A stretch of 36,983 nt of DNA from Promethearchaeota archaeon (GTDB lineage: Archaea; Asgardarchaeota; Lokiarchaeia; Sigyniarchaeales; SOKP01). The notes under the pieces are model-generated. The model had not been told where the DNA came from, did not search any database, and saw nothing but the letters and a program-made list of their open reading frames with translations. A program made the position numbers and the translations under genes. The stretch covers positions 1 to 36,983 of the forward strand of contig SOKP01000024.1 of assembly GCA_004375715.1 (NCBI GenBank), in the 5' to 3' direction. Positions 869 to 31,921 of the stretch are shown in pieces; the stretch's first letter is position 1, and each line of letters opens with the position of its first letter.

Positions 869-939
869 TTTTACCGTAACAGTCCCACCTATTCAAAATG
901 TTTTAAAATGCTTGTATTATTTTGGAAGCATTTAGTTTT

Positions 940-13281: not shown

Positions 13282-14238
13282 TTAGAACTCATCCTTATTA
13301 AGGAATTTTTTCAAATTTTGGAAATCTTCCCCATTTAAGGAGTCAATAACTGTTTTGAAAGTTTCAATGGTTTTATTTTTTGTAACAATCATCAACACGG
13401 AGCCATTACTTACTTCTTTTACAATAATATAATTGTTGTCGCTTTCATATATGACAGTGGATAATTCTAGAGGTGACAACGGAGAATCTGAAAGATTCAT
13501 AATCTTTGTAAATATTTGATATATATTTGATTCAAGCGTTCCTATTTCTAGTTTCATAAATTGAAGTTTATGATGTAGTTCTATTTTTCCTAAAGTTGAA
13601 GCTATTATTAGACCATCCGGTTGATTAAACAAAAAGTACTCCGAGAGTGTAATAGTCTTTAATTGATCTAGCATGTGTCTTATTTTCCCTAGTTTTTGTA
13701 GCGCTAAAGTATTTTGTTGGATTTTATAATCTAGAACTTCAATTAACCTATGCTGAGCACTCCCCTCTTTCACCGATACAGGTGTAAAAGCAATTTTCGT
13801 TTTCATATCATCGGTGAGCTTAGCGATAAGTAGTTCATAAATTTCGTCTTCCTTCGATTCCTGAAGATCAGTCTTGTTTAGTAAAACGTACACTTTCTCA
13901 ACTTGAGGACTAAATTCAAAGATATACTTTAAAAAATTATCAAAAATTTCTTTTAAACGAGGTTCGTCTGCAGCTGAATCCACCATGAAAACTGCCGTCA
14001 TTACATCAGAAAATACAAGCTCTCTTTTTTTTTCAGAGAAGTATCTGTCCATATAAATCTCTTGCCCTCCAAGATCCCATATAGATAATTCCATAATTCC
14101 ACGAAAGATAAAATTTTCCCTTGAAACTCCTTTAGTGGGTTTTAAATTGAGCACTTTCATGAAGTTATATCCTAAACATGTAGTACGCAATAGTGATGTT
14201 TTACCTGCGTTCTGAGGTCCAAATAACAGTACTTTTAT
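13282..14238 (-). CDS. Rag/Gtr- or Arf-like small GTPase with C-terminal roadblock/longin-like domain; 5' end extended upstream of the tracked ORF
   Basis: Tracked ORF starts at TTG 14190. In-frame upstream codons 14238-14191 encode IKVLLFGPQNAGKTSL, which completes the P-loop (GPQNAGKTS). G3 is WDLGGQE and G4 is LNKTD. The in-frame stop is TGA at 14247-14245, and no ATG/GTG/TTG lies between it and the P-loop. Confidence 0.8.
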   Translation of the reverse strand: MKVLLFGPQNAGKTSLLRTTCLGYNFMKVLNLKPTKGVSRENFIFRGIMELSIWDLGGQEIYMDRYFSEKKRELVFSDVMTAVFMVDSAADEPRLKEIFDNFLKYIFEFSPQVEKVYVLLNKTDLQESKEDEIYELLIAKLTDDMKTKIAFTPVSVKEGSAQHRLIEVLDYKIQQNTLALQKLGKIRHMLDQLKTITLSEYFLFNQPDGLIIASTLGKIELHHKLQFMKLEIGTLESNIYQIFTKIMNLSDSPLSPLELSTVIYESDNNYIIVKEVSNGSVLMIVTKNKTIETFKTVIDSLNGEDFQNLKKFLNKDEF

Positions 14239-14417
14239 ATCATTTCACCATTATGCAATTTATACTTCTAATATATTTTTTATAAAAGGATGTTTATTTA
14301 ATTTTTTCTAATTATGGATAATTTTGTTAATATCAATTACATTGACGATTGAATTAAATATAATTTTATATTACCTTAAGTAAACTTTAATTTTAATTAT
14401 AAGAGATTTTAATTAGT

Positions 14418-14945: not shown

Positions 14946-15068
14946 TAAACGGAATAACCATGTTCACCCATTTTTTTCCCACATAATTATCCTTATTTTT
15001 TAGGCTGAAAATTTAAATAATTCTCTGTACTTTATACTCACAGTATTAAAATTAACACATTACAAGGT

Positions 15069-16163
15069 GTGGATTTGATTCAAGAACTGAAAAAAACGCC
15101 ATTTTATAATATTCATGTGAACTTAGGAGCAAAGATGGTAGATTTTGCTGGTTTTAGCATGCCAGTTCAGTACGACAGCATTATAAAAGAGCATGAAGCA
15201 GTTCGATCTAAAGCAGGAGTATTTGATGTTTCTCACATGGGAGAATTTCTGTTGGAGGGTGAGGATGTCGTTGATTTTCTTCAATATGTAATGATAAACG
15301 ATTTAAACTTACTTGAACCCTCGAAAGGCCAATATTCTTGCATGTGTTATGATAACGGTACCGTTGTTGATGATTTAGTCTATTACGAAGAAAATCCTAA
15401 CAGATTTAGAATGATTGTTAATGCTGGCAATGTTGAAAAAGACTATCAATGGTTAAACGAACATATAGGGAACAGGGACGTAAAAATCACTAACTTATCT
15501 TCCGAGCGATCTCGTTTAGCTTTTCAAGGTCCAAAGTCTGATGAATATCTACAACCACTAATGGATGTAGATTTAAACTCGGTTAACCGGTTCTATTTTG
15601 CTCGCGGGAATTTAAATAATACTCCTATATTTATCGCTAGAACAGGATATACTGGTGAGAGTGGATTTGAATTATCATTTGATAATGCCTTCGCAGAGAA
15701 AATCTGGAGTGACTTGATCCAAACCGGAGCATCTCCGGCAGGTTTAGGGGCAAGAGATTCTTTAAGGTTAGAAGCCACTTATTCTTTATATGGCCATGAA
15801 ATAAACGATTCAATTACGCCTGTAGAGGCAGGACTTTTTTGGTTAGTTAAACCTAAAGAAGGCATAGATTACATTGGAAAAAAAATACTTCTAGAACAAA
15901 AAACTCATGGGACTGAGAGAATAATAGTAGGATTAAACTTATTGGAGCGAGGGATCATTAGAGAAAATTTTAAAATTTTCAAAGAAAATGTCGAAATTGG
16001 GTATGTCACCTCTGGAGGATATTCTCCAACTCTCAAAAAGACGATTGCCTTAGGTCTTATTAAAAAACAATACAAAGAAGTAGGAACTAAGCTTGAAATT
16101 CAAGTGAGAAATAAAAATCTTAAAGGAATTGTCGTATCTACACCGTTCTTTCGCAATGTTTGA
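15069..16163 (+). CDS. gcvT: Glycine cleavage system T protein (aminomethyltransferase)
   Basis: 364 aa; 'GAKMVDFAGFSMPVQYDSIIKEHEAVRSKAGVFDVSHMGEF', 'ARTGYTGESGFELSF', 'GLGARDSLRLEATYSLYGHEI'. The start may be TTG 15075, which follows AAGGTG. Confidence 0.95.
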   Translation: MDLIQELKKTPFYNIHVNLGAKMVDFAGFSMPVQYDSIIKEHEAVRSKAGVFDVSHMGEFLLEGEDVVDFLQYVMINDLNLLEPSKGQYSCMCYDNGTVVDDLVYYEENPNRFRMIVNAGNVEKDYQWLNEHIGNRDVKITNLSSERSRLAFQGPKSDEYLQPLMDVDLNSVNRFYFARGNLNNTPIFIARTGYTGESGFELSFDNAFAEKIWSDLIQTGASPAGLGARDSLRLEATYSLYGHEINDSITPVEAGLFWLVKPKEGIDYIGKKILLEQKTHGTERIIVGLNLLERGIIRENFKIFKENVEIGYVTSGGYSPTLKKTIALGLIKKQYKEVGTKLEIQVRNKNLKGIVVSTPFFRNV

Positions 16164-30654: not shown

Positions 30655-30730
30655 GTTGTGATTTCTTATCATAGACTTATATAAAATTCATATATCTCAT
30701 TATTTTCTAATAATCAAGGTGTAATAAGCT

Positions 30731-31921
30731 ATAGTAGATATAAGTAAGGTTAAAACAATTTCAGTTATCGGAGCAGGAACAATGGGTAGAGAAATCGCTC
30801 AAGTTGCTCTCATGTCAAACATATTTAATAAAGTTTACATAAATGATACTAATGAAAATGCTTTAAAAAATGCCAAAATCTATATTTTAAATGGCCTTAA
30901 CAAATTGGAATCTAAGGGTCTATTAGCGCACGGGTTAACAACGAATGAATTAATAAAAAAACTGGTACTCGACAAAAATTTAATCTCTTCAATAAGAGAC
31001 ACAGATTTTGTTGTTGAAGCAATACCCGAGATAATGGATTTAAAACAAGAATTGTTCGAAGAATTAGGGCAATACGCTCCAGAGCACGCTTTGTTAGCGA
31101 CAAATACATCGACTATGAGCATTACTAAAATCGCAGAAGCATCAAAAAGACCTGGACAAGTAATTGGAATGCATTTTTTTACTCCTATTCCTTTGCTTAG
31201 GCTAATTGAAGTAATAAAAGGGGAAAAAACTTCACAAGAAGCTTTTGATTTAGGTGTAGCAATTGGTCAAAGGTTACCCGCAATCAAGGGTAAAAGGTAT
31301 ATCGCAAAAATAGAAAAAGAAAGTCCAGGATTCATCGTCAATCGATTAACTATTGCGACAAGCCTCTTATTTAATTGGATTTTAGATACAGCTTCTGAAA
31401 AAGGGATACCTTACGAGAAATTCGACAACGATTTCGTGTCTCCCCCTGAAATGGGGCCGTTAGCTAAATGGGATTTTTTAGGGTTAGATGTTATTTGCGA
31501 TGTTATGAATTACTTTGTCCAAGAAGTATCGCCTGAATTTGCTCCTGGTAAAACGCTTACAAACCTTCTCAAAGAAGGTAATTTGGGAAGAAAAACAGGG
31601 CAAGGTATTTACGAGTGGGTTGAAGGAAAACCTAATCGTAAAACTAATGAAAAAGCAGGCTTATTCAACCCAGAGCATTATTACGCAATTCAATTAAACG
31701 AAGGATGTAGGTTATTAGAGGAAAAAATTGTTTCTGGATATAAAATAATTGATGATACAATGTTAGCAGGAATGGATATGCCAGGACCATTTGGAGCTGG
31801 TAAAAAAAATTACGAAAAATGGTCGCTAATGCTAGAAGACCTCGCTGAAACGACCCAAATAAATTATTTTAAACCGTGTGACATGATGAAATCTGGAGCT
31901 TTTCTTAAACTTAGAAAGTAA
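30731..31921 (+). CDS. 3-hydroxyacyl-CoA dehydrogenase; 5' end extended upstream of the tracked ORF (30782)
   Basis: In-frame upstream codons from 30731 read (I/M)VDISKVKTISVIGAGT before MGREIAQVAL, completing the Rossmann GAGTMG motif. Also 'DFVVEAIPEIMDLKQELFEELG', 'LATNTSTMSITKIAEASKRPGQVIGMHFFTPIPLLRLIEVI', 'GFIVNRL', 'MGPLAKWDFLGLDV'. Confidence 0.88.
   Translation: MVDISKVKTISVIGAGTMGREIAQVALMSNIFNKVYINDTNENALKNAKIYILNGLNKLESKGLLAHGLTTNELIKKLVLDKNLISSIRDTDFVVEAIPEIMDLKQELFEELGQYAPEHALLATNTSTMSITKIAEASKRPGQVIGMHFFTPIPLLRLIEVIKGEKTSQEAFDLGVAIGQRLPAIKGKRYIAKIEKESPGFIVNRLTIATSLLFNWILDTASEKGIPYEKFDNDFVSPPEMGPLAKWDFLGLDVICDVMNYFVQEVSPEFAPGKTLTNLLKEGNLGRKTGQGIYEWVEGKPNRKTNEKAGLFNPEHYYAIQLNEGCRLLEEKIVSGYKIIDDTMLAGMDMPGPFGAGKKNYEKWSLMLEDLAETTQINYFKPCDMMKSGAFLKLRK

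Follow-up and report, generated by a model that had tools for sequence, protein, structure and literature searches.

Start region of the Rag-like GTPase gene

The window, by which we mean the whole analysed stretch of 36,983 nucleotides from a Lokiarchaeal (Asgard) genome, carries on its minus strand a gene which is, judged by its sequence, a Rag/Gtr1-like GTPase of the family of Gtr1/RagA. Read on that strand, its start region consists of GGTGA, AATGAT and ATA, followed by the codons AAA GTA CTG TTA TTT GGA CCT CAG AAC and then GCA GGT AAA ACA TCA CTA TTG (Table 1). The frame is closed upstream by a TGA (14247-14245) lying inside GGTGA itself, and no ATG, GTG or TTG occurs in it ahead of the P-loop, the earliest NTG being the TTG at 14190. 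Translated through the ATA it reads N-D-I-K-V-L-L-F-G-P-Q-N-A-G-K-T-S-L-L. The earlier note, all coordinates of which hold on rechecking in the sequence, had claimed that the P-loop lies upstream of every canonical start codon and that the open reading frame from TTG 14190 lacks it, and this is confirmed by the frame and by the PF04670 search described below. The 3' end of 16S rRNA in the same genome, GGATCACCTCCT, is complementary to GGTGA. Among 32 small GTPases of this genome recognised by their P-loop, 31 have an in-frame NTG before it and the Rag-like GTPase is the sole exception, so the missing NTG is not a matter of chance.

Table 1. Positions of the start-region elements of the GTPase gene and of other proposed non-NTG starts in the window.
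Feature	Position	Strand	Remark
Shine-Dalgarno sequence GGTGA	14245..14249	-	each base present in 18-20 of the 21 genus sequences; fits the 16S 3' end
ATA, proposed start codon	14236..14238	-	ATA, ATT, ATC, ATG, TTG or GTG in orthologues; three-base periodicity starts directly 3'
Rag/Gtr1-like GTPase coding sequence, 318 codons	13282..14238	-	PF04670 and profile match to yeast Gtr1
P-loop (G1) GPQNAGKT	14197..14220	-	5' of every canonical start codon
TTG, first in-frame canonical start codon, not the start	14188..14190	-	P-loop lost; no adjacent upstream SD-like sequence
ATG ATA TAA, other frame, not the start	ATG 14241..14243	-	missing from many orthologues
ATA, proposed start, 3-hydroxyacyl-CoA dehydrogenase (30731-31921)	30731..30733	+	AGGTG at 30717-30721
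ACG, proposed start, conserved ORF (877 down to 410, frame broken below)	875..877	-	GGTGGG at 889-884
ATT, possible start, gcvT (to 16163)	15078..15080	+	after AAGGTG at 15064-15069

Read from the ATA, the protein matches Gtr1_RagA (PF04670) over residues 2-214 with an E-value of 4e-23 and 82.5 bits (curated cut-off 22), while the version started at TTG gives the weaker 2.8e-17. A profile made from the orthologues matches the yeast Gtr1 structures (3r7w) over residues 2-290 with an E-value of 1.7e-19. The motifs G1 (GPQNAGKT), G3 (WDLGGQ) and G4 (NKTD) are present and fully or almost fully conserved across the alignment, and in 12 aligned orthologues G7, P8, A11, G12, K13 and T14 of the P-loop are invariant. 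As for a C-terminal roadblock-like domain, the alignment to the Gtr1 profile continues to residue 290; an AlphaFold model built from 12 sequences was too poor (pLDDT 48.9) and, being of low confidence, was left out of the argument. The gene thus shares with Gtr1/RagA GTPases the G domain family and an alignment to yeast Gtr1 reaching into the C-terminal part, but it is archaeal and has a non-AUG start.

Comparison with orthologues

All sequences compared come from assembled genomes or metagenomes. Among named records, metagenome-assembled genomes of Candidatus Lokiarchaeota come closest, with GTPase protein identity up to 94%. Some match to the GTPase was found in all 58 genomes, and the criterion for an orthologue, a match with E below 1e-50, was reached in 45 of 57 relatives. 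In the closest species the DNA of the start region is equal in length and layout, with GGTGA six bases 5' of codon 1. Across 69 orthologues codon 1 is ATG in 30, ATA in 18, ATT in eight, TTG in six, ATC in three, and GTG and TTT in two each; within the genus (21 sequences) ATA occurs in 15 and ATG, ATT and TTT in two each. AUA, AUU or AUC is retained at this position in relatives of the window's species, which, like the recurrence of such starts in other genes, lay beyond the reach of the earlier note. On a gene tree from the GTPase protein, with residue 1 masked, ATA needs five changes and ATT six, which indicates that AUH starts were gained and lost several times.

The stretch that follows codon 1 bears the marks of coding sequence. 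Pairwise codon differences within the genus over codons 2-16 amount to 1423 synonymous and 336 nonsynonymous, while the ratio in the two other frames is 160:1512 and 8:1624, and the three codon positions have mean diversities of 0.19, 0.09 and 0.47. Upstream of codon 1 there is no three-base period, and the conserved island, positions -11 to -7, is GGTGA, retained in 18-20 of the 21 members. At codon 1 itself the first two bases are conserved and third-position diversity is 0.47, equal to the mean third-position value of codons 2-16. The claim that ATA 14238, six bases after GGTGA, is the probable start thus finds support in the comparison with 68 orthologues.

Two sister species (L057 and L059) have TTT at codon 1 and keep GGTGA, so their start must be elsewhere or be stranger still; an ATA two codons downstream is possible. 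Another orthologue (L026/L056, G015:C57:13122-14102) starts with ATG, contains two in-frame TGA codons and gives a match 30 bases longer, for which a frameshift, an insertion or an assembly fault are candidate readings.

Other genes with apparent non-NTG starts

Our genus sample of about 0.9 Mb comprises 609 gene copies in 206 families, and the frequencies given here rest on it. Candidates for non-NTG starts were picked out from family-wise alignments and a coding signal extending 5' of the first NTG, and the listed contexts were then judged by eye. About seven of the 206 families look like non-NTG starts (AUA, AUU, AUC or ACG) after a Shine-Dalgarno (SD) sequence; the resulting share, about 3%, should be taken as approximate because families were assigned by reading the listed contexts. 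In 55 of 60 families there is an alignment column at which at least 85% of members carry an NTG.

Three further cases lie in the window. The 3-hydroxyacyl-CoA dehydrogenase has ATG as codon 1 in nine of ten other species, the tenth copy being broken upstream, and the 3HCDH_N domain is complete (from profile position 1) solely with a start at ATA 30731; annotation from ATG 30782 would cut off the beginning of the NAD-binding domain. The conserved open reading frame at 877 has ACG in four of five species and TTG in the fifth, and two of these species are without NTG for more than 60 codons. The window copy of this frame is broken downstream, so that about 156 codons stand against about 390 in the orthologous frames. 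As for gcvT, GTG 15069 or TTG 15075 are also possible starts in the window, and three sister species lack an NTG and have just ATT or ATC at the site. Elsewhere in the genus a family of TPR-like proteins appears to start with ATT or ATA after an SD sequence, and two single open reading frames have apparent non-NTG starts (ATT in G009, ATA in G010).

Two samples of 200 kb each from outside the genus were put through the coding-prefix test: four of 89 genes passed in a related genus (G076) and one of 99, with AGGAGG before ATT, in a different Asgard lineage (G056). One case in the related genus is a ThiF/MoeB-like protein (L291, G076:C1:1600001-1620000, plus strand, offset 15699), where AGGTGAT is followed after five bases by an ATA which the conserved N-terminus requires as start. 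Several matches of the test were judged false and left out of the count, namely pieces of ADH (L134), frameshifted copies (L163, L156), one match in L161, an open reading frame without SD (L129) and one at 15736 without a convincing SD (L138). Two other approaches were dropped: a scan by alignment onset only, which was noisy from antisense open reading frames and conserved leaders, and SD-anchored tallies across whole open reading frames, which mainly collected SD-like words within genes.

The start of aIF1

The SUI1/aIF1 gene of the genus, which codes for the archaeal proofreading factor of start codons, also has no NTG start. In the class-wide set (L172-L191 and L232-L275, identified by SUI1 PF01253), 45 of 63 readable copies are without an NTG before the first Cys of the N-terminal CxxC and 18 have one. 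Exactly six codons 5' of that Cys stands an ATT in 37 of the 44 copies that are long enough, an ATC in one and an ATA in another. An in-frame stop is often just two or three codons 5' of the ATT, which leaves little else as a start, and the alignment points to a conserved AUU as the start of aIF1. The leader AAGGTTGTGA(TAA) is conserved; the SD sequence in it is interrupted (AAGGTTGTGA(T)) and harder to make out than the GGTGA of the GTPase. In a second type, represented by three copies (L172-L174), a clear GAGGTGA is followed after seven bases by ATT, with a GTG within the SD sequence. Among other Asgard families, aIF1 of G087, G095, G102 and G109 has AGGAGG and then ATA, that of G091 perhaps CTG, and in many further families it starts with ATG or GTG. 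No aIF1 match was found in the window's own genome, probably because this genome is 84% complete.

Alternative readings of the GTPase start

From these results we conclude that the Rag-like GTPase very probably initiates at AUA 14238, and three other readings of the same region have to be weighed. The first is recoding, in which translation would begin out of frame at an NTG further upstream and continue through a programmed frameshift (e.g. ATG GTG AAA TGA in the GTPase, GTG ... TAT TAA in aIF1). It can draw on the short GTG frame that ends at a TAA overlapping the ATT in many aIF1 members, as well as on the S. solfataricus aIF1 gene, which was once proposed to be expressed by a -1 frameshift (PMC8211752). 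However, that TAA is the automatic outcome of ATT-AAA and the GTG belongs to the SD-like sequence, one copy (L256) lacks the stop of this frame, another (L273) its NTG, and in other lineages the members with an ATA start have no short GTG frame. In the GTPase the upstream NTG frame is conserved in no case among the orthologues compared, and we regard recoding as unlikely.

A downstream NTG start, at TTG 14190 or at codon 17, which is ATG in most relatives, would yield a GTPase without P-loop and leave the upstream stretch untranslated. Of the 21 genus members, 18 do carry ATG at codon 17 and the rest TTG or CTG, but because this codon is also ATG in most species having ATG at codon 1, it is a plain conserved Met/Leu, and no SD sequence precedes it. 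Since codons 2-16 evolve like coding sequence with an invariant G1 motif, and GGTGA is conserved and fits the 16S rRNA, this reading is very unlikely.

Least of all do we credit the last, an assembly error or recent two-base insertion breaking a gene that truly starts at ATG 14243, which the earlier note had offered as an alternative in view of the nearby TATA run: that ATG is close to the GTPase frame and within an AT-rich run, but independently assembled close relatives from several projects are equal in length and frame here (e.g. GGTGAAATGAAATAAAAGTA in L010 and GGTGAAATAAAATAAAGGTA in L012), many of them lack an ATG at 14243, and 15 of the 21 sequences from the genus have ATA at codon 1. 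Damage to the frame private to the window's genome was not found, as the layout is genus-wide and the frame is open over 318 codons. The same layout in independent assemblies, the coding constraint and the conserved GGTGA together exclude an assembly slip for the lineage.

Possible mechanism and regulation

With initiation at AUA 14238, the small ribosomal subunit would be positioned through SD pairing at GGTGA, and the ordinary CAU initiator tRNA would pair with AU while the third position is tolerated, so that the GTPase would begin with methionine; the initiation rate would be expected to lie below that of AUG. An exact initiator anticodon stem was found in nine of 24 genus genomes, and ARAGORN confirmed a CAT tRNA-Met only in L330. 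According to this scheme a small set of Lokiarchaeal genes would use AUH (and a few ACG) starts, and aIF1 would hold down its own production in the way of bacterial IF3. In Saccharolobus solfataricus, aIF1 is reported to promote discrimination against start codons other than the canonical ones (PMC6237735). Because aIF1 itself seems to start at a conserved AUU, genes with AUH starts would probably be sensitive to its level, and control of such genes by aIF1, self-limitation included, is by analogy a possibility which we put forward tentatively. Lokiarchaeia may perhaps have evolved a counterpart of the infC loop, in which an AUU-start aIF1 represses itself and genes starting with AUA, AUU, AUC or ACG follow the aIF1 level or the stringency of initiation; with similar reserve we suggest that these would include the Rag-like GTPase and metabolic enzymes.

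Competing with this regulatory part, and not with the AUA start, is the reading that the start is real and near-neutrally tolerated, genes with a good SD sequence drifting between AUG, AUA and AUU in a weakly discriminating lineage without any regulation. We consider it quite possible, if somewhat short of an even chance. The third-position diversity of codon 1, which matches that of codons 2-16 beside conserved first two bases, is in accordance with it, and judged from the alignment this seemingly near-neutral variation is more easily explained by tolerance than by a weak start under precise tuning; the dehydrogenase, too, has ATA in the window species only. On the other hand, most families stay canonical (the 55 of 60 mentioned above), the GTPase ATA persists in most of the genus and the ATT of aIF1 is near-invariant. 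The near-fixed ATT of aIF1 suggests function, while the third-position drift in the GTPase speaks for tolerance as much as for tuning.

Relation to known systems

Several of the closest known parallels are bacterial. The infC gene, which starts with ATT in E. coli and with ATC in Streptomyces, is held down by its own product, IF3 (PMC5472188); in S. aureus infC starts with AUA and further AUA and AUU genes are known there (PMC13009471). For bacterial infC with an ATT, ATC or AUA start, self-regulation is either established or assumed (PMC5472188, PMC13009471). A conserved AUH start after an SD sequence is common to infC and our genes, and aIF1 likewise encodes a factor rejecting poor starts, but the window gene is a GTPase and no initiation factor, and for aIF1, the archaeal functional counterpart of IF3, feedback is put forward as a possibility. 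Streptomyces sigR, whose GTC start is repressed by IF3 (PMC5472188), likewise combines a conserved non-canonical start with a product that does not belong to the initiation machinery, but it is bacterial and its control by the fidelity factor is demonstrated, while here control would follow by analogy. The S. aureus genes ccpN (AUA) and cvfC1 (AUU) resemble the present cases in starts that are conserved among relatives, and theirs are set by extended SD sequences (PMC13009471); they are, however, bacterial and were shown via initiation-site profiling, whereas the GTPase start is read from sequence. Within Asgard archaea, the tubulin AtubA of Kariarchaeaceae has a probable ATT start, deduced from its fold and ribosome-binding site (PMC13394414), and there, too, the N-terminus needs an upstream start with a plausible ribosome-binding site, but this is a single gene of another Asgard lineage, reported without a survey across genes or species. 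In eukaryotes eIF1 is autoregulated through a poor AUG context (Ivanov et al. 2010, as cited in PMC6237735), again a case of a fidelity factor whose own start is sub-optimal, in which AUG in poor context takes the place of the non-AUG codon of aIF1. The literature searched, which takes in few subscription papers and no preprints, describes AUA or AUU starts neither for Lokiarchaeia nor for archaeal aIF1.

Should aIF1 prove to regulate itself through its start, then bacteria (IF3, AUU), eukaryotes (eIF1, AUG in poor context) and archaea would all restrict their fidelity factor by the same device, a start on its own gene that is difficult to use. A general principle for the control of initiation could then be tested in archaea. 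Gene finders that allow ATG, GTG and TTG only truncate or lose such genes, and do so in archaea near the origin of eukaryotes; the parts lost are the P-loop of the Rag-like GTPase, the NAD-binding motif of the dehydrogenase and the start of aIF1.

Further upstream of the GTPase gene, the leader AATTAGAAAAAATTAAATAAACATCCTTTTATAAAAAATATATTAGAAGTATAAATTG (14313-14255, minus strand) is nearly identical across five species with protein identity of 84-94%, and AATATATTAGA recurs ahead of the gene in more distant species; from its sequence this leader is likely a promoter element.
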